Shown here piece by piece: positions 8,814 through 34,238 of a stretch of DNA of 61,378 nucleotides. This DNA is from an uncultured bacterium. Lineage in GTDB: Bacteria > Verrucomicrobiota > Kiritimatiellia > PWTM01. The notes beneath the pieces are model-generated. The model searched no databases. It had not been told where the DNA came from and was given only the letters and a program-made list of their open reading frames with translations. The stretch lies in NCBI GenBank assembly GCA_900661335.1, contig CAACVY010000001.1:1-61378 (forward strand), given 5' to 3'. Each line of letters opens with the position of its first letter. Position 1 is the stretch's first letter. The position numbers and the translations under genes are program-made.

Positions 8814-9827
8814 TTACACCACGCGGGCGCCGAGAGGTTCACCGCGCACGGTGACGAGGGAGTACCCAAATGCCTCGCAAAGGTCGTGGGGTGGGGGGAT
8901 ACCTGTGACCATAAGGATCCCAGCGGAGTCGCCACCGACCGCACCGGCTCCGCACACCTTGGCGGCGCCGCCGCGCTGTTCCACGGCCGCCACGAACTGA
9001 GCGACTCGCGACGGCACGACACCGATCCGACATAGGAGGGCGTGGTTGTCCCGCACCGCCTGGCAAAACTTCTCTGTCTGGTCGCCACGTAGCGCGGATT
9101 CCATGCGTGTGGTGACTTCGGAAAAATCGTCCCACAACAAGCTGGCATCGCCGTGGCGGCGCCGGACTTCCGCAACGCACTCACCCGTCGTAGTGACCGG
9201 TTGGCCGGTGTTGACCAAGACCATTGGGATCTTCGGCAACGGGATGCGTTCCACCTGGCCCTGTTGGAACCGCGCGCATCCTCCGTGGAGCGAGATGTAA
9301 GAGTCTACACCGCTCGGAAACCCGTGTTGCAGGCGTTCCACCTCGAGGCTGTACTGGTAGTACCAATCGGGCCGAAACTCTACCCGGAAATAATGTCCGA
9401 TGGCGCGGAGCATGGAAAGAATGGTCGCCGCCGACGACCCCAGGCCACACCCGATGGGAATGTTCGAGTGGAGACGGAAGTGCAGTCGGCGCTGAAGTTT
9501 CAGGTGCAGTCCGTCCAAAACAATAATGAACGCGTACTGAAACAGCTCGATGGGCTTCCGGAGAACCTGCCGGATGGTCAGGCGTCCCTCAAGAAACAGT
9601 TGGTAGTTGCGGAGGACCCGCCGTCGAAAGTCGCGAAGGGCTAGCAACGTATAGGACTCGCACTCGTGGAGGTCCGATAACTCGATCCCCACAGTTTCGT
9701 CTCCCGGTGGACCCTCGCGAATTTCGACGACGGCGCTGCGGTCAATCGCCATCGCGAGCGCAGGACGTCCGTAGACGACCGCATGTTCACCACTCAAAAT
9801 CAACTTGCCTGGCGCAATCGCTTTCAT
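8814..9827 (-). CDS. Mevalonate kinase (GHMP kinase family)
   Basis: APGKLILSGEHAVVYGRPALAMAI; IPIGCGLGSSAA; GFPSGVDSYIS; KVCGAGAVGGDSAG. Confidence 0.85.
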   Translation of the reverse strand: MKAIAPGKLILSGEHAVVYGRPALAMAIDRSAVVEIREGPPGDETVGIELSDLHECESYTLLALRDFRRRVLRNYQLFLEGRLTIRQVLRKPIELFQYAFIIVLDGLHLKLQRRLHFRLHSNIPIGCGLGSSAATILSMLRAIGHYFRVEFRPDWYYQYSLEVERLQHGFPSGVDSYISLHGGCARFQQGQVERIPLPKIPMVLVNTGQPVTTTGECVAEVRRRHGDASLLWDDFSEVTTRMESALRGDQTEKFCQAVRDNHALLCRIGVVPSRVAQFVAAVEQRGGAAKVCGAGAVGGDSAGILMVTGIPPPHDLCEAFGYSLVTVRGEPLGARVV

Positions 9828-10993
9828 GCTCGTTCGTACACCCGTTTGTGCTGGCTCATGCCCGCCAAACGGAATGGCCCCGTGCGGTACTGGGCGAACA
9901 CATACTCGCCGCCATCGCGGGGCATCGACAGTGTCACTATATCCTCATATTGCTGGTAGTCCAATTCGACGCGTTCCGCCAAGCGTCGCGCGTGAGCCTC
10001 CGACCACAGCGCCGCCCGGTACCCAGGCTGGACGACGCCGCTAAACCACTCGGCCGTGCATCCCGATCCGTAACTGAATAGGCCGATCCGATCCCCCGAG
10101 AGGTCGTCTGGACATGTATCGAACAACGCCGTGAGGGACTCGTACAGCGATGCCGCATATGTATTCCCCGTTTGACGGTTGTACGCGAGACCATACGAGA
10201 TCCGTCGAGCAGTTTCCTCGGCGGACCAAGCCGGCCATCCCGCTTGGCGGTGAAGCTGCTGGAGCCCTTTTTCTACGATCCGGGTAAACGGCAAGTGGCA
10301 GCATAGCCGCTGAAGGTGGTCCCATTGGAGGCCCGATGCGTCACGGTAGCGCTTCCAGCATTCCACCATGGCATTCAAGTAGACCCGGGTCGAGTATGGC
10401 CCATCCACCAAGGCTTCTTCACGATAGTTGGGTCGCCAGAAGTCCATGACGTCGTCCGCGTAGGTTCCCCGCCAGGGATCGAGGGCGAGCAGCCGCGGCT
10501 GGGCGCAGACACGCATGGCCACCGCCCCGGCGCCTTGCGTGGGCTCGCCAGGGCTACGCAGGTCATACCGCGCAATGTCGGCCGCGATGATCAACACCGC
10601 CCGTCCTGGGTGCGCCGCGACCCACGCGCACGCAAACTGTAAGGCTGCGGTGCCAGAATAGCAGGCCTGCTTGAGCTCCACGGCTGTGCACCGTTCAGGC
10701 AATTCAAGCAGACCATGCACGAACATGGCGGCGGCCTTCGATTGATCTACGCCGGTTTCAGTAGCGAAGAGAAGCCAGTCAAGATCTTCCACGCCATCCG
10801 CTTCGACAATTGGAAGCGCAGCGTTGGCGCCCATGGTCACGACGTCTTCATCGGGCGGTGCCACCGCCATGCGCTCTTGCCCTAAGCCGACGCGGTACTT
10901 GTTCGGGTCTACTTGGCGTACCGCGGCCAGCTTGGCAAGGTCGAGGTAGTAGGCCGGGCAGTAAAAACTCAGCCGATCGATCCCCACTTTCAC
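9824..10993 (-). CDS. mvaS: Hydroxymethylglutaryl-CoA synthase
   Basis: VGIDRLSFYCPAYYLDLAKLA; VELKQACYSGTAALQFA (catalytic Cys); GLFSYGSGCTAEWFSG. GTG start at 10993, overlapping the upstream stop. Confidence 0.9.
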   Translation of the reverse strand: MKVGIDRLSFYCPAYYLDLAKLAAVRQVDPNKYRVGLGQERMAVAPPDEDVVTMGANAALPIVEADGVEDLDWLLFATETGVDQSKAAAMFVHGLLELPERCTAVELKQACYSGTAALQFACAWVAAHPGRAVLIIAADIARYDLRSPGEPTQGAGAVAMRVCAQPRLLALDPWRGTYADDVMDFWRPNYREEALVDGPYSTRVYLNAMVECWKRYRDASGLQWDHLQRLCCHLPFTRIVEKGLQQLHRQAGWPAWSAEETARRISYGLAYNRQTGNTYAASLYESLTALFDTCPDDLSGDRIGLFSYGSGCTAEWFSGVVQPGYRAALWSEAHARRLAERVELDYQQYEDIVTLSMPRDGGEYVFAQYRTGPFRLAGMSQHKRVYERA

Positions 10994-12078
10994 GTTCCGT
11001 CCTCCAGTTCCCGGGGAAGAAGCAAATCGGTCCGTCCGATGAGTTCTCGAGCACTCCGAAGACCCGTCAACCACAGGGCCACTCGGAACTCGTGCTCGAA
11101 TTGACGGATCAGCTCCACAACGCGCTCTGTAGATTCCATCGCGGGGGCCAAGAAGGGCCGCGCCACGCCTACCAACGAGGCTCCCAACGCCATCGCTTTG
11201 ACCATGTCCAGCCCCGAACGAATGCCCCCGGAAGCGATGAGCGTCATGCCGCGCTCGCGAAACGGAGCCAACGCCCGTAACGCAATCGGTGTGGGCACCC
11301 CCCAGTCCTGAAAGGTCTGCCCTAGGTCGTCGCCGACGCCCGCGGCACGCCGGCGATGGCCTTCGATCCGGCTCCATGAGGTGCCCCCCGCGCCCGCCAC
11401 GTCCAAAATACGAATTCCAGCGGTCCAAAGCGCCTGGGCGTCGGCGGGCGAGACGCCTGCGCCCACCTCTTTGACCACCACCGGCACGGGCAACTGCGCG
11501 GCGATGGCCCCGATCTTTTGCACTAGGCCTCCAAATCGAGTTTGTCCTTCGGGCTGAACCGCCTCTTGCAAAGGATTGCAGTGCAAGATCAAGGCGTCGG
11601 CGCGAAGGTGTTCCACGGCTCGCCGACACTGTTCGAGGCCATAGCCATAATTGAGCTGCACCGCGCCCAAGTTAGACAAGAGTACGGTCGAGGGTGCCAG
11701 CGGCCGCAAATCGAAACTGGCCGCCGTTTCCGGGTGCTCGATCATCACGCGCTGGGAGCCCACCCCCATCGCGACGCGACACAACTCGGCGGCTCGCGCC
11801 AAGTTGTGGTTGATCCGTTGCAACCGTTCGCCTCGCCCGCCGGTCATGGAGGAGATGAGCAAGGGAAGAGCGAGGGTGCGTCCTAAGAACTCGATCGAGG
11901 TGTCCACGTCCTCAAGGTCATACTCCGGAAGCGCTCGGTGCCAAAGTTGAATGCGATCGAAGTACCGGCGGTTTCGATCCGCCTCGGCATCGCGGAGAAT
12001 GATCTCGATGGCTTGTTCTTTTCGGTGTGGCCCGGAGGGGTCCGATGGAATCGGACCTGACGAGTTCCGTGCGTTCAT
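10990..12078 (-). CDS. fni: Type II (FMN) isopentenyl-diphosphate delta-isomerase
   Basis: LALPLLISSMTGGRGERLQRINHNLARAAEL, MGVGSQRVMIEHPE, VVVKEVGAGVSPADAQALWTAGIRILDVAGAGGTSW, IASGGIRSGLDMVKAMALGA. Confidence 0.93.
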   Translation of the reverse strand: MNARNSSGPIPSDPSGPHRKEQAIEIILRDAEADRNRRYFDRIQLWHRALPEYDLEDVDTSIEFLGRTLALPLLISSMTGGRGERLQRINHNLARAAELCRVAMGVGSQRVMIEHPETAASFDLRPLAPSTVLLSNLGAVQLNYGYGLEQCRRAVEHLRADALILHCNPLQEAVQPEGQTRFGGLVQKIGAIAAQLPVPVVVKEVGAGVSPADAQALWTAGIRILDVAGAGGTSWSRIEGHRRRAAGVGDDLGQTFQDWGVPTPIALRALAPFRERGMTLIASGGIRSGLDMVKAMALGASLVGVARPFLAPAMESTERVVELIRQFEHEFRVALWLTGLRSARELIGRTDLLLPRELEDGT

Positions 12079-13187
12079 TCCGAAGTCTCCGAGTCGGTAC
12101 CGGCTCGCTCCAAACGCAGGTGGGCTCGGACGAGTTCTCCCGGATTGGTCAGCGCCGCCAAGAGCGACAACTCGCCGCACAAGACAACGGCCGCGGCGAT
12201 CATGGCGAGTCGCTGAGCGGCTCGTCCCGGTTCTGAACTTGCCGCGCAACCTAGCAGTTGAAGATGCTTGCGGACCCATGGAAGGGCCTTCCCGGCGCCG
12301 ACGGTTCCCACCACCAAGTTCGGAAGCGTCACAGAAAAGTACAGCGTGTCCGACTGCGCCTCGGCCCACGTCGTTCCTTGCGATCCTTCGACGATGTTAG
12401 CCGCGTCTTGCCCGGTGGCTAGGTAGAGAGCCAGCAGCATGTTGGCAAAGTGAGCATTGGCGGACCGCAGTGAGCCGGCCAACGAGGACCCGAGAAGGTT
12501 TTTGCGCACGTTCAACTCCTCGATGGCCATGGGACTGGATCGGAGAATTCGACGGCAGACGGACGAAGGGAGTTCGCATTCTGCGACGACAAAGCGGCCC
12601 CGTCCCAACAGCCCGTTCACGGCCGAGACTTTTTTGTCCGTGCAGTAGTTGGCGGAGACCGACACGGCGCGTAGCTGCGGCCATTCGCGGACCATCCAGT
12701 CCAACACTTGTTGGGCCGCGCGTGTGACCATGTTGTGACCGGCGGCGTCGCCCGTCCAAAGTTCCAGCCGTACGAAAAGAAGCCGACCGCAGACTTCCCA
12801 GTGCAGGCGTTGGAATCGTGCAAAGCGACTGCCGGTCGTCGCCACTTGGGCGAGGTCGGCTTCGCGGGCTTGAAGAGCCGCGCCGATCCGCGCCGCTTCG
12901 AGGGCCGAGGGGGCTTCCAACAGCACGGAGCGGGTCATGCCTTCGCGAACCACGGCGACGCGAATACCGCCGGCCTCCCGTGTGGCCCGGGCGCCTCGAG
13001 CCACGGACGGCCACAGTGGGGTTTCCAGGGTCGCCAGGGGGACCCACACCTCTGCAGGTGCGTCCACGCCGATTAGCCGCACAGGACCCACCACCCGGAC
13101 CGGGAAGGGGATCGTGTGCGACCGGCCTCCAGGGACGGTGTGCGATGTTCGATCAGTCGGTGGCGCGGTCATTCGTTTGGCGTCCAT
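12075..13187 (-). CDS. Hydroxymethylglutaryl-CoA reductase, class I-like
   Basis: NYCTDKKVSAVNGLLGRGRFVVAE; LATGQDAANIVEGS; AGELSLLAALTNPGELVRAHL. Glu (ATLE), Lys (DKK), Asp (GQDA) and His (RAHL) align by eye with class I catalytic residues. Confidence 0.9.
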   Translation of the reverse strand: MDAKRMTAPPTDRTSHTVPGGRSHTIPFPVRVVGPVRLIGVDAPAEVWVPLATLETPLWPSVARGARATREAGGIRVAVVREGMTRSVLLEAPSALEAARIGAALQAREADLAQVATTGSRFARFQRLHWEVCGRLLFVRLELWTGDAAGHNMVTRAAQQVLDWMVREWPQLRAVSVSANYCTDKKVSAVNGLLGRGRFVVAECELPSSVCRRILRSSPMAIEELNVRKNLLGSSLAGSLRSANAHFANMLLALYLATGQDAANIVEGSQGTTWAEAQSDTLYFSVTLPNLVVGTVGAGKALPWVRKHLQLLGCAASSEPGRAAQRLAMIAAAVVLCGELSLLAALTNPGELVRAHLRLERAGTDSETSE

Positions 13188-19063: not shown

Positions 19064-20584
19064 TCAGAAGTAGATATCCCGTTCGCCGGCCGCGACGCGT
19101 TGATAGGCAGCGTCAAACGCGGGCCACCACCGGGGCATAGTGCGGCGGACTTCTCCGATCTCGCGCTGGAGGACTCTTTCGCCGGCTTCTCGTGTCGGCT
19201 CGCTGGCAAAATCGTCGAGCCATTCGCGGTAGGTGAGGATCGCGTTGAGCTTACAGAATCGGGCCTCCGCTCCGCTGCGCAACAGGTCCATGATGCATTG
19301 TCCGGTTCGTCCGCAGCGATAGCCGGCGGTACAGAACGACACAATCAAGCCCATCTCGGCGAGATCCCGCACCAAATCGTCCAGCGAGCGGGTGTCGCCC
19401 AACATGAACTGCTGGCGTTCCATGGATTGTTCAGAGCGCACATCGCTGGTCGAGTAACCGCCGACTGCGATCCGCGCCGAGCCATCGGTCTGCGTAACGC
19501 CCAACTGCAATAGGCGCCGCCGGACGTCGGGCGGTTCGCGAGCCGTCAGGATCATGCCCGTGTAAGGGACGGCCAACCGCAACAGCACGACGATTCGCTC
19601 CATGTCCGTATCCGATACGCGCCATCGGGTTTCTTGGACATATGGGGCGTGGTCGGCCGGCTCGAGGCGGGGGAACGATATCGTATGCGGCCCGACGCCG
19701 AACACCCGTTCCAGTTCGATCGCGTGCGCCAACAAGCCCATGACTTCGAACTTCCAATCTCCGAGCCCGAACAATGCACCAATACCGACGTCGTCAATGC
19801 CCGCGGCCATCGCCCGGTGCATGGTGTACAATCGCCACGAGTAATTGGCCTTGAACGCCGCCGGATGAACCTGCCGGTACAGTTCCGGATCGTACGTTTC
19901 TTGGAACACCTGGTACGTACCCAGCCCAGCCTCGTGGAGACGACGAAGTTCTTCGATGCGCAGCGGGGGCGCATTGACGTTGACACGACGGATGGATCCC
20001 CAGCCGACGCGTGCACGGACCCGCACCGAGTAGATCGTCCGGATGCACTCGCAGATGAAGTCCACGTCCATGGACGGATGTTCGCCGAAGACAATGATCA
20101 GCCGTTTATGGCCAATGCGGCCCGCGAGCACTTCCACTTCGTTCCGTAGCTCCGTCATGCTCAATACCCGGCGGTCCATGTGCCGGTTCTCCACGCGTAG
20201 GCCACAGTACAGGCAGTTGTTGACGCAGCAATTGCCGATGTAGAGGGGGGCGAACGTGACGATGCGCCGGTCGTAGACCTTCAACTTGATTTCCGCGGCG
20301 ACGGTGCGCATCTCCTCCCAGAGGGCGGGGTCGGTGACGTGGAGGAGCGTTGCCAATTCGTCCAGGGATAGCGTGTGAATCGCTCGGGCCTTGGCCAAGA
20401 TGTCCCGTACCCGTTGGGCATCGGGTGGCTGTTCCGCCGCGCGCTGCAAGTGTGCACGAATCGCGTTGGGGTCGATAAAATCCCGGCCGCCCGGTCGCCA
20501 AGCGGCGATTTCATCCATGTTGATTCGACTTTGGGCCCAGCTGGCCACGTCGTGAGTCACTTGCGAGGATGTCGGACTCGTCAT
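19064..20584 (-). CDS. hydG: HydG-like radical SAM [FeFe]-hydrogenase maturase
   Basis: Radical SAM CVNNCLYCG (CX3CX2C); VGPHTISFPRLEPA; end-to-end HydG-like to the C-terminal AAGERDIYF. C-terminal cluster motif altered (see finding). Confidence 0.85.
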   Translation of the reverse strand: MTSPTSSQVTHDVASWAQSRINMDEIAAWRPGGRDFIDPNAIRAHLQRAAEQPPDAQRVRDILAKARAIHTLSLDELATLLHVTDPALWEEMRTVAAEIKLKVYDRRIVTFAPLYIGNCCVNNCLYCGLRVENRHMDRRVLSMTELRNEVEVLAGRIGHKRLIIVFGEHPSMDVDFICECIRTIYSVRVRARVGWGSIRRVNVNAPPLRIEELRRLHEAGLGTYQVFQETYDPELYRQVHPAAFKANYSWRLYTMHRAMAAGIDDVGIGALFGLGDWKFEVMGLLAHAIELERVFGVGPHTISFPRLEPADHAPYVQETRWRVSDTDMERIVVLLRLAVPYTGMILTAREPPDVRRRLLQLGVTQTDGSARIAVGGYSTSDVRSEQSMERQQFMLGDTRSLDDLVRDLAEMGLIVSFCTAGYRCGRTGQCIMDLLRSGAEARFCKLNAILTYREWLDDFASEPTREAGERVLQREIGEVRRTMPRWWPAFDAAYQRVAAGERDIYF

Positions 20585-21843
20585 AGGGGAACCTCCGCCA
20601 TGGGGTTCGCCGCCGCGCGAAAGGCGCGATAGGCATTCGGAAATGGTTCGAGCACGCGATCGAGGACTCCCCGGGCCAACGAGATGGCCAAGCCATAGTT
20701 CGTGATCGGCACTCCGGCTTCCCGAGCACGCTCGATGCGCGTCAGCGTTTCGCGTCGGGTAAGCATGCAGGATCCACAATGGACCACTACGTCGTAGCCG
20801 CTCAAATCATCGGGGTAATCCCGCCCCTGCATATACTCGATGCACAGTTCGGCGCCCACCATGGATCGCAGCCATCGGGGGAGCTTCGATCGGCCGATGT
20901 CATCCTCCAATGGGTGGTGAGAGCAAGTCTCGGCGATCAGCACGCGGCTCTGGGGACGCAAGCGCGTGAGCGCCGCTGCGCCCCGAGCGAGCTCGTCTAG
21001 ATCGCCTCGGGCACGGGCCATGAGAATGGAGAACGTCGTGCACCGAATACCTGCGGGTGTGGAACGGACCATCATATCTACGACTTGCGAGTCGCACACC
21101 ACGAGGTCCGGAGGACGCGGAAGGCTGGCGAGGGTCTCGGCGTAGCGGCATTCTTTCACAACCGTCACCACCAAGTCGTGATCCAAGGCATCGCGGATCG
21201 CTTGCACCTGCGGCAGAATCAACCGGCCGCGAGGAGCGGAAATGTCAATCGGGACGATCAGCACCAGCCAGCCACCCTTGGGAAGCAAATCGCCGAGCAA
21301 GGGCGGAACCGCCAGCACGGCATCCGGCAGCGCCTGTTCGAGTAGCCGTCGGAACCGGCGTGCAATGTCCTCGCGCTGCGCCGCGTCGACCGCGCACGCC
21401 GTGATCCAGCCCACGGTGGATTTGGCGAGACTGTCCTTTTGAATTTCTGAAACGGGCCCGAGGTCGGACTTGTTGACGACACCCACCACCGGCACCCGGC
21501 GCGCTCGGGCGGCGGCCAAAACTTCTTCTTCGGGCGGCCCCCACTGTCCAGGTTCGCATACCAACACGACTACGTCGCACCTCTGCATCGCGGCATAGGT
21601 CCGCCGGCGACGCGCTTCGCCAAGCTCGCTCACGTCGTCCAGCCCGGCGGTATCCAGTAGAACCACGGGTCCGAGGGGCCATAACTCCATCGACTTTTCC
21701 ACTACGTCCGTGGTCGTTCCCGGGATTGGCGACGTGATCGCGAGGTCTTGCCCGACCAGGTAGTTCATCAGGCTGGATTTGCCGACATTCGTCCGGCCGA
21801 AGAATCCGATGTGCAAGCGCAGTGATTTGGGTGCGGTGTTCAT
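20581..21843 (-). CDS. hydF: [FeFe]-hydrogenase maturation GTPase HydF
   Basis: GFFGRTNVGKSSLMNYL P-loop, DTAGLDD, NKSDLG; Fe-S motif ETCSHHPLEDDIGRSKLPRWL...VVHCGSCMLTRRE; GVPITNYG. Confidence 0.95.
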   Translation of the reverse strand: MNTAPKSLRLHIGFFGRTNVGKSSLMNYLVGQDLAITSPIPGTTTDVVEKSMELWPLGPVVLLDTAGLDDVSELGEARRRRTYAAMQRCDVVVLVCEPGQWGPPEEEVLAAARARRVPVVGVVNKSDLGPVSEIQKDSLAKSTVGWITACAVDAAQREDIARRFRRLLEQALPDAVLAVPPLLGDLLPKGGWLVLIVPIDISAPRGRLILPQVQAIRDALDHDLVVTVVKECRYAETLASLPRPPDLVVCDSQVVDMMVRSTPAGIRCTTFSILMARARGDLDELARGAAALTRLRPQSRVLIAETCSHHPLEDDIGRSKLPRWLRSMVGAELCIEYMQGRDYPDDLSGYDVVVHCGSCMLTRRETLTRIERAREAGVPITNYGLAISLARGVLDRVLEPFPNAYRAFRAAANPMAEVPL

Positions 21844-31044: not shown

Positions 31045-33048
31045 ATGCAACCTGGCAGTCAGTTGGTGACGACCATCGGCGAGCGGTGCCGCGTATGCTA
31101 CACGTGCGTGCGCGACTGCCCGGCGAAGGCCATTCGGATTGCCGGTGGGCAGGCGAGAGTCGTTCCGGAGCGCTGTATCGGCTGCGGGAATTGTTACCGC
31201 GTATGCAGCCAAAAGGCGAAGCAGGTGTACGATTCTCGGAATGATGTGCGCGCTCTGCTGGCTTCTGGCCGCACGGTGGCGGCCATCGTGGCGCCGAGTT
31301 ACCCTGCCGAGTTTTCAGACCTGGAACCCTCGCAGGTGGCCGGCATGATCCGCCGCTTGGGCTTTCAACTCGTGTGTGAAACCGCATTCGGAGCCGATTT
31401 GGTCGCCCAGGAGTACCGGCGGCTGCTTGAAACGGACCGTGGCCGTTTCATCGGAACGACCTGCCCTGCCGTGGTCGCCTATGTTCAAAAATACTTGCCC
31501 GAGTTAGTGCCGAACCTCGCGCCGATCGTGTCGCCCATGATCGCAGAAGCCCGTGCACTCCGGCGTATTCATGGGGATGAACTCGCGGTGGTGTTCATCG
31601 GGCCCTGTTTGGCCAAAAAGGTCGAAGCCGACGGGATGGGGGCGCAGACTGCGGAAGTCGAAGCGGTCCTTACCTTTGTCGAGCTACGCGCAATGTTGCG
31701 CGAGGCGGGTATCGAACCGCGCCCGGCATCGGAAGAGCGCGACTTTGATCCTCCTCATCCCACGTTGGGCGCGCTGTTTCCAATCAGTCGCGGACTGCTC
31801 CAGGCCGCGCATTTGCGCGAGGACCTTTTGGAGGGCACCATCGTGGCGGCCGATGGGCGCCCCGCGTTTTTGCAAGCGTTGAGCGACTTCGCGGCGGGCG
31901 CGCTGGACGTCCGCCTGCTGGAAGTGCTCTGCTGTAACGGCTGTGTCATGGGGGCGGGGATGAGTGTGGACGCGCCGCTGTTCCAGCGCCGGATGGCGGT
32001 CAGCCGTCACGCGCGACGGCGTGTCGAACGATCCGATCCCGCGACTGAAGAACTCATTCGTCACCGCTTGGCCGGTCTCGACCTCCGCGCGGAGTTCCGG
32101 CCAGAAAAACTCCCCCCGAGCGCTGTCCCGCCGGAGGAATTGAAACGGATCTTGGCGGTGATGGGCAAGCTCAGCCCGGAGGACGAACTGAACTGTGGGG
32201 CGTGTGGCTACTCGACCTGCCGTGAGCACGCTGCGGCCATCTATTTGGGGCTGGCCGAAAGCGAGATGTGCCTCCCGTACACGATCGACCGTTTGCGGGA
32301 ATCGCTTAAGGAGTTGAGCGAGTCCAACGCGCAGTTGGCCAGCGCGCGCGAAGCCCTGATGAATGCGGAGAAACTGGCCAGCATGGGGCAGTTGGCCGCG
32401 GGCATCGCCCACGAGATCAACAACCCACTCGGGGTGATCCTCCTGTATGCAAAGATGTTGTTGAACGAAATTCCACCGGCCTCGCAGGCGCGTCAAGATC
32501 TGGCGCTGATTGCCGAACAGGCCGAACGGTGCCGAAACATCGTGTCAGGGTTGCTCAACTTCGCGCGACGGAATCGTGTCGTCCGGCGTCCGACCAATCT
32601 CATCGAACTGGTCGAACGCTGTCGACGAGGGGTCGTGATTCCGGACCATGTCTACGTGTATGTTCGGCATAACATGCGCGATCCGATGGCGGAAGTGGAC
32701 GGCGACCAGATCCTGCAGGTGTTGACCAACCTGATCGTCAATGCTGTCGAGGCGATGCCCAATGGGGGCGAGCTGACGATTGAAACCGATGATACGGACG
32801 AGGAAGTCATCCTCCGAGTGCGGGATACGGGTTGTGGAATTCCGCCCCAGAACTTGCCCAAGATTTTCGAGCCTTTCTTCACGACCAAGCAGATCGGGAA
32901 AGGCACCGGACTTGGCTTGGCGGTGGCCTATGGAATCGTCAAAATGCACCGAGGGCGGATCGAAGTTACGTCGAATGCGGATCCCTCTCGCGGGCCGACC
33001 GGCACGACGTTCACGGTGACCTTGCCCCGTCGAGCGGAGGAGGTGTGA
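31045..33048 (+). CDS. [FeFe]-hydrogenase-like sensory histidine kinase (2x[4Fe-4S] - H-cluster domain - Fes cluster domain - HisKA - HATPase)
   Basis: CRVCYTCVRDCP and CIGCGNCYRVCS ferredoxin motifs; H-cluster motifs TTCPAV, GPCLAKK, EVLCCNGCVMGAG; NCGACGYSTCREHAAAI...MCLPY; GQLAAGIAHEINNPLG; DGDQILQVLTNLIVNAVEAM; DTGCGIP; GTGLGLAV. Confidence 0.9.
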   Translation: MQPGSQLVTTIGERCRVCYTCVRDCPAKAIRIAGGQARVVPERCIGCGNCYRVCSQKAKQVYDSRNDVRALLASGRTVAAIVAPSYPAEFSDLEPSQVAGMIRRLGFQLVCETAFGADLVAQEYRRLLETDRGRFIGTTCPAVVAYVQKYLPELVPNLAPIVSPMIAEARALRRIHGDELAVVFIGPCLAKKVEADGMGAQTAEVEAVLTFVELRAMLREAGIEPRPASEERDFDPPHPTLGALFPISRGLLQAAHLREDLLEGTIVAADGRPAFLQALSDFAAGALDVRLLEVLCCNGCVMGAGMSVDAPLFQRRMAVSRHARRRVERSDPATEELIRHRLAGLDLRAEFRPEKLPPSAVPPEELKRILAVMGKLSPEDELNCGACGYSTCREHAAAIYLGLAESEMCLPYTIDRLRESLKELSESNAQLASAREALMNAEKLASMGQLAAGIAHEINNPLGVILLYAKMLLNEIPPASQARQDLALIAEQAERCRNIVSGLLNFARRNRVVRRPTNLIELVERCRRGVVIPDHVYVYVRHNMRDPMAEVDGDQILQVLTNLIVNAVEAMPNGGELTIETDDTDEEVILRVRDTGCGIPPQNLPKIFEPFFTTKQIGKGTGLGLAVAYGIVKMHRGRIEVTSNADPSRGPTGTTFTVTLPRRAEEV

Positions 33049-34238
33049 TGGAGCGTTGGCGTGTTTTAGTGGTGGACGACGAACCCGGGATGTGCCGGGG
33101 TGTCCAGCGGGTGTTGCAACGTCACACCGTGCAACTGCCCGACTTGGGGGCCGAGATCGGGTTTGAAACTGAGGGCGTGGAAACGCTAAGCGAGGCGCGG
33201 GCGGCGCTGACGGCCCGACGGCCGGATCTCATCTTGCTCGACTACAAGCTGCCCGATGGATCGGGGCTGGATTTTTTGCGCGAGCTTCGAACCAGCCAGT
33301 GGGATGGATTGGTGATCATTATTACTGCGTTCGCCTCATTGGACGTTGCGGTCGCGGCGACGCGCAACGGGGCCTTCGATTTCTTGGCCAAACCGTTTGC
33401 GCCGGAAGAACTCGAGACGGTGGTTTCCAAGGCCGTGCGGACGCTTGTGGTCGAACGTCGTGCAAGGCGGTTGGAAGAAGAGCGGCGCCGTACGCGTCTG
33501 GAGTTCCTGTCGGTTCTTGCGCATGAGCTCAAAGCGCCCATTGGGGTGGTGGAGGGAATTTTGCGCCTGATGGCCTCGCGGGTGTTGGGAGCGGATATTT
33601 CCGCCTATGACCGACACATTCACCGCGCGTTGGCCCGGCTGGAAGGAATGCGCAAGCTGATTTTGGACTTGTTGGATCTGACCCGGATCGAGGCTGGCGA
33701 ACGGCGGCGTGAGCTCGGGCGCGTGGATGTGGCTGAGGTGGCGCGCGCCGCCCTCGACATGGTGGCCAGCGATGCCGCGGCACGAAAGATCCAGCTCCGC
33801 TTGCACGCGCAGCCACCGGTCGAGCTGTGGGCCGACCGTAGCGAATTGGAAATCATCCTGAACAACCTAGTGAGCAATGCAGTAAAGTACAACCGCGACG
33901 AAGGATCGGTGGACGTCTGGCTCCGGCGCCTAGAGGACGGCGTGGAGATCGAGGTGGCGGACACCGGGGTGGGGATGACCGAGGAAGAACAGGCACGGTT
34001 GTTTCGAGAATTCTCGAGGATCCGCAACGAAAAAACGCGGAACATTCCGGGCAGTGGATTGGGCCTATCGACCGTGAAAAAGCTGGTGCAAATCTATCGC
34101 GGCGAGATTACGGTCCGCAGTCAACCGGACGTCGGTTCGACCTTCACCGTCCGATTGCGCGATGCAACGGCTGCGAATCCGTCCACCCCGCCGCAGGCTC
34201 AGGTGATCTCGCCAACTCCCGTGGCGGAATCGCGCTGA
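33048..34238 (+). CDS. Response-regulator receiver fused to a histidine kinase
   Basis: VLVVDDEPGM...LILLDYKLPDGSGLDFL...KPFAPEEL receiver; EFLSVLAHELKAPIG HisKA; NNLVSNAVKYN, DTGVGM, GSGLGLSTVK HATPase. Overlaps the upstream stop (TGATG). Confidence 0.93.
   Translation: MERWRVLVVDDEPGMCRGVQRVLQRHTVQLPDLGAEIGFETEGVETLSEARAALTARRPDLILLDYKLPDGSGLDFLRELRTSQWDGLVIIITAFASLDVAVAATRNGAFDFLAKPFAPEELETVVSKAVRTLVVERRARRLEEERRRTRLEFLSVLAHELKAPIGVVEGILRLMASRVLGADISAYDRHIHRALARLEGMRKLILDLLDLTRIEAGERRRELGRVDVAEVARAALDMVASDAAARKIQLRLHAQPPVELWADRSELEIILNNLVSNAVKYNRDEGSVDVWLRRLEDGVEIEVADTGVGMTEEEQARLFREFSRIRNEKTRNIPGSGLGLSTVKKLVQIYRGEITVRSQPDVGSTFTVRLRDATAANPSTPPQAQVISPTPVAESR

Follow-up and report, generated by a model that had tools for sequence, protein, structure and literature searches.

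The hydG gene of the 61,378-nucleotide stretch of DNA analysed in the present study (the window) most probably encodes a functional HydG from a widespread subclade whose auxiliary [4Fe-4S] cluster has Cys424 as its third ligand in place of the cysteine usually found at position 421. HydG cleaves tyrosine at its radical-SAM cluster and gathers CO and CN- on the dangler iron of a C-terminal cluster (PMC6212873), and is most often recognised by the motif CX2CX22C (PMC9431212). The window protein carries CX5CX19C instead, the second cluster cysteine being shifted by three positions. Hereafter, position 4 denotes the second canonical cysteine (Gly421 in the window) and position 7 the residue that follows YR (Cys424 in the window). 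The gene, its upstream neighbour and the residues discussed below are as follows, all on the minus strand:

20581..21843, minus: hydF, directly upstream of hydG (TIGR03918, 501 bits, cut-off 326)
19064..20584, minus: hydG, 506 aa, CX5CX19C variant (open reading frame, TIGR03955); its ATG and the hydF stop codon share ATGA, an overlap from which we infer the start
20204..20227, minus: radical-SAM CX3CX2C with C120, C124 and C127 (CVNNCLYC), read from the sequence
19685..19687, minus: His300 of VGPHTIS, an invariant column, present in all of the exceptions shown
19331..19333, minus: Cys418 (TGT), first auxiliary-cluster cysteine, invariant in the alignment
19322..19324, minus: Gly421 (GGC), at the canonical site of the second auxiliary-cluster cysteine (sequence and alignment)
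19313..19315, minus: Cys424 (TGC), proposed replacement ligand, conserved in the subclade and never found with Cys at position 4
19295..19297, minus: Cys430 (TGC), an optional extra cysteine
19253..19255, minus: Cys444, third auxiliary-cluster cysteine, invariant in the alignment

The codons at 19253-19333 of the minus strand read TGT ACC GCC GGC TAT CGC TGC GGA CGA ACC GGA CAA TGC ... TTC TGT (AAG) and translate as CTAGYRCGRTGQCIMDLLRSGAEARFC(K), running from C418 through G421, C424 and C430 to C444. The original prediction of CTAG instead of CTAC with two nearby extra cysteines was thus exact in both coordinates and reading, and the radical-SAM CX3CX2C and VGPHTIS histidine that it described as intact are both present. 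His300 is the VGPHTIS histidine, which in known HydG binds the dangler iron.

Assignment of the protein to HydG is based on a score of 452 bits against the NCBIfam equivalog TIGR03955 (curated cut-off 312), spanning profile positions 9-469 of 470, together with the radical-SAM CX3CX2C, His300 and a HydG fold that includes the C-terminal domain. The protein does not qualify as ThiH, scoring 236 bits against a cut-off of 380 and possessing the C-terminal domain. Since the C-terminal motif is CX5CX19C and not CX2CX22C, we class it as a member of a variant subclade of HydG rather than as canonical HydG. An auxiliary [4Fe-4S] cluster with dangler iron, and tyrosine cleavage to CO and CN-, are putative features of the window protein.

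Three other genomes of the same genus, from separate assemblies, have GGC at the Gly421 codon and TGC at the Cys424 codon, so the glycine is not a sequencing or assembly error, and this explanation was rejected. The broader proposal of an error or a decayed gene found no support beyond the incompleteness of the bin; the shared codons, the conserved subclade and the long open frame all oppose it, and we give it a negligible probability. The CTAGYRCGRTG...C motif is found in HydG of the same family and of 16 genera of the same class, and other families of that class have the ordinary CT[A/G/S]CYR. Relatives with an ordinary CTAC had been named in advance as evidence against the variant; it is instead shared by members of the genus and the family and by many further genera, and alignment of homologues revealed the Gly4/Cys7 combination to be conserved across a large subclade. 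When one genome per species was scanned for F-C-T-x-G-Y-R-x-G-R-T-G, a pattern that leaves the residue after YR free, at least 118 contigs matched, and among the matches listed this residue was Cys in 113 of 118. Cys7 HydG occurs in at least 19 named phyla, including Omnitrophota, Kiritimatiellota, Lentisphaerota, Verrucomicrobiota, Spirochaetota, Bacteroidota, Planctomycetota, Bacillota and Thermodesulfobacteriota, as well as in one archaeal (Archaeoglobaceae) bin. The CX5CX19C HydG therefore appears to be genuine, functional and widespread, and not an error.

The proposed role of Cys424 draws on a swap between positions 4 and 7. In an alignment of 344 HydG sequences, a few of whose genes were possibly counted twice (reached via two loci), none of the 183 sequences with Cys4 also had Cys7, which was present in 153 of the 161 sequences lacking Cys4. 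The same pattern was seen in a sub-sample of 217 sequences obtained from family or protein searches and not chosen by motif, with Cys7 in 0/179 sequences with Cys4 and in 36/38 with Gly or Ala at position 4 (Fisher p 4e-39, a value that takes no account of relatedness and greatly overstates the significance). C418, C444, the radical-SAM cysteines and the histidine are conserved throughout the alignment. The two extra cysteines differ in this respect: C424 is conserved in essentially all of the variant subclade, but C430 in only about half (53%), which makes Cys424 the candidate ligand. Cys430 (GQC) was accordingly rejected as a general replacement. The original prediction had allowed that either the YRC or the GQC cysteine takes over the ligand role, and the Cys4/Cys7 exclusivity among the 344 sequences favours a takeover specifically by the YRC cysteine.

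A tree of 74 HydG sequences with ThiH as the outgroup places the Cys7 proteins in one large clade and a few nearby lineages. Four labels mapped onto this tree require 8 changes in all, and Cys4 and Cys7 require 4 each, so that the exclusivity rests on few independent events and is poorly replicated; an independent-pairs test of the swap likewise had too few events and no power.

Gly at position 4 without Cys at position 7 was found in seven distinct genes. A minor clade with the motif CTAGYR[E/Q]GRTG...FCIANG (loci L057, L068, L091, L301 and L297) has Glu or Gln at position 7. The four Glu/Gln7 genes without Cys4 come from genomes that hold a second HydG, canonical where its motif was read, and the clade member that is the single HydG of its genome (L297, genome G1013) has kept Cys4. 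This pattern fits a loss of the ligand when a second HydG copy is present, and the CTAGYR[EQ]GRTG clade looks like such a second copy. HydG proteins with CTAGYRAGRTG, and thus two C-terminal cysteines, were found at loci L113 and L339 in genomes G065 (a Syntrophomonas bin) and G710; each is the sole HydG of a genome with 4-5 hydrogenases and HydF. They do not fit the second-copy pattern. It follows that two cysteines may suffice, or that another ligand may be used, and these two proteins are the strongest evidence against a strict need for three cysteines. Compensating cysteines common to the two-cysteine exceptions were looked for, and none was shared.

These exceptions bear on an alternative in which only two protein cysteines, 418 and 444, hold the auxiliary cluster throughout the Gly4 group, helped by a ligand from outside the protein (free cysteine, water or carboxylate, for example), with Cys424 serving for protection, redox, delivery or as a partial substitute. 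We consider it unlikely: the sole Gly4/Ala7 HydG of G065 and G710, beside several HydA and HydF, and the natural occurrence of Gly4/Glu7 and Gly4/Ile7 members speak for it, but 95% of Gly4 sequences have Cys7, and no sequence combines it with Cys4, a pattern difficult to account for unless position 7 does the job of position 4. A more general reading, which also seems rather unlikely, is that the second ligand of the auxiliary site can come from either of two positions, and that some natural HydG (Gly4/Ala7) build the site with two protein cysteines only; the synthon site may then not require three cysteine ligands, or may rely on another third ligand and another release step.

Replacement of Cys421 by Cys424 remains our preferred reading, and would shift the second cysteine of the auxiliary [4Fe-4S] site to position 7, leaving Gly at position 4. 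Cys418, Cys424 and Cys444 would then hold the cluster through CX5CX19C in place of CX2CX22C, leaving its fourth iron open for the dangler unit, while the dangler iron would be held by His300 and a free cysteine as in known HydG. With this chemistry presumably unchanged, the variant would retain tyrosine cleavage and supply HydE and HydF with the Fe(CO)2CN synthon. The predicted model of the window HydG (pLDDT 94) superposes on 4WCX_A with a TM score of 0.97 and 1.5 Å. In the model, residues 420-423 form a short helical turn with 424 just after it, and positions 421 and 424 are separated by about one helical turn. A canonical HydG modelled likewise has a matching turn (387-390) that includes the second Cys, and its local structure is the same. 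A three-residue move of approximately one helical turn suggests that the side chain would stay on the same face.

Two HydA are found in the genome to which the window belongs, comprising a catalytic [FeFe]-hydrogenase on contig 126, with canonical TSCCPAW, MPCTAKK and ECMACRGGC-type motifs, and a sensory enzyme in the window, which is a likely client of the maturases:

31045..33048, plus: [FeFe]-hydrogenase domain fused to a histidine kinase, sensory type (PF02906, HisKA, HATPase_c)

It is followed by a response-regulator/histidine-kinase protein at 32832-34238 (+), with which it probably forms a sensory hydrogenase system. The window enzyme has GTTC where TSCC is usual, that is, its proton-relay cysteine is replaced by Thr. 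Elsewhere in the window, an HMG-CoA synthase-like protein adjoins an FMN-dependent protein (9824-11629 and 10990-12369, both on the minus strand); the latter may be a type 2 isopentenyl-diphosphate isomerase, and the two a mevalonate-pathway pair.

HydE was not detected in the bin containing the window, which is 68% complete. It scored over the cut-off in 28 of the 29 genomes examined, namely all 28 besides this bin, the closest relatives included; HydA was found in 33 of 34. The variant is usually the sole HydG of the genomes examined and is accompanied by HydE, HydF and [FeFe]-hydrogenases. No canonical HydG was found elsewhere in its own genome or in most of the other genomes examined, and a paralogue existing beside a canonical HydG was rejected on these grounds; Peptoclostridium litorale, which has both forms, is an exception. 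The complete genome of Clostridiaceae M8S5 holds no HydG other than the variant; one clear HydE and eight hydrogenase matches accompany it, and no [NiFe] hydrogenase was found there. The complete genome of Desulfosarcina widdelii PP31 has hydG, hydE, a GltA-like NAD(P)-binding oxidoreductase, hydA, aspartate ammonia-lyase (aspA) and hydF in a run, ammonia-lyase genes such as aspA being known companions of hyd operons (PMC11736057). The genome note on Sphaerochaeta halotolerans makes no mention of H2. Judged by its gene content, a sole HydG beside HydF, HydE and HydA points to a working orthologue, and the divergent HydG paralogue offered by the original prediction as its other option is mostly unsupported.

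Such a paralogue would not synthesise the H-cluster synthon and would serve another pathway, which we regard as very unlikely. Consistent with it, a 100% complete Kiritimatiellae genome (G316, locus L396) has the variant HydG and HydF with no [FeFe]-hydrogenase match, and a Thermodesulfobacterium bin (G062) has HydG, HydE and HydF with no hydrogenase match. In nearly all genomes examined, however, the variant is the only HydG and occurs with HydE, HydF and HydA, often as neighbours. Separately, genomes G1131 and G888 (loci L279, L312, L274 and L313) each carry a pair of HydG, of which one falls in a deep CT[S/T]CYR clade; neither [FeFe]-hydrogenase nor HydF was detected in these two genomes, and another role for their HydG-like proteins is possible.

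Because a large natural subclade carries the ligand one helical turn away, motif searches of the CX2CX22C type miss real HydG genes. The natural variants (Cys4, Cys7 and two-cysteine) also provide material for testing what the third ligand contributes as the synthon is assembled and released. By mutation, maturation was reported to require the C-terminal cluster of canonical HydG (King 2006, as cited in PMC9431212), whose ligand sequences can vary (Duffus 2012, as cited in PMC9431212). Variability of the C-terminal motif is therefore already known; no description of a CX5CX19C HydG was found in the open literature searched, which covers a minor part of the specialist papers.

Among the closest described systems is HydG of Thermoanaerobacter italicus (PDB 4WCX), which matches the window HydG in fold (TM 0.97, 1.5 Å) at 42% identity and shares its radical-SAM motif, VGPHTIS histidine, first and third auxiliary cysteines and GERDxYF protein end. 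The two differ in that 4WCX has CTACYRMGRTG (CX2CX22C) and the window HydG CTAGYRCGRTG (CX5CX19C). HydG of Carboxydothermus hydrogenoformans (PDB 4RTB) is of the same family and fold, but likewise has the canonical cysteines (CTACYRKRRTG). Certain clostridial radical-SAM proteins (C-x4-C-x23-25-C), which PMC9431212 presents as possible atypical HydG, also have altered C-terminal cysteines and are set apart from the window HydG by their described spacing. ThiH (2-iminoacetate synthase, PDB 7PD1) has the radical-SAM tyrosine-lyase core in common with the window HydG at 30% identity but, in contrast to it, lacks the C-terminal auxiliary-cluster domain.
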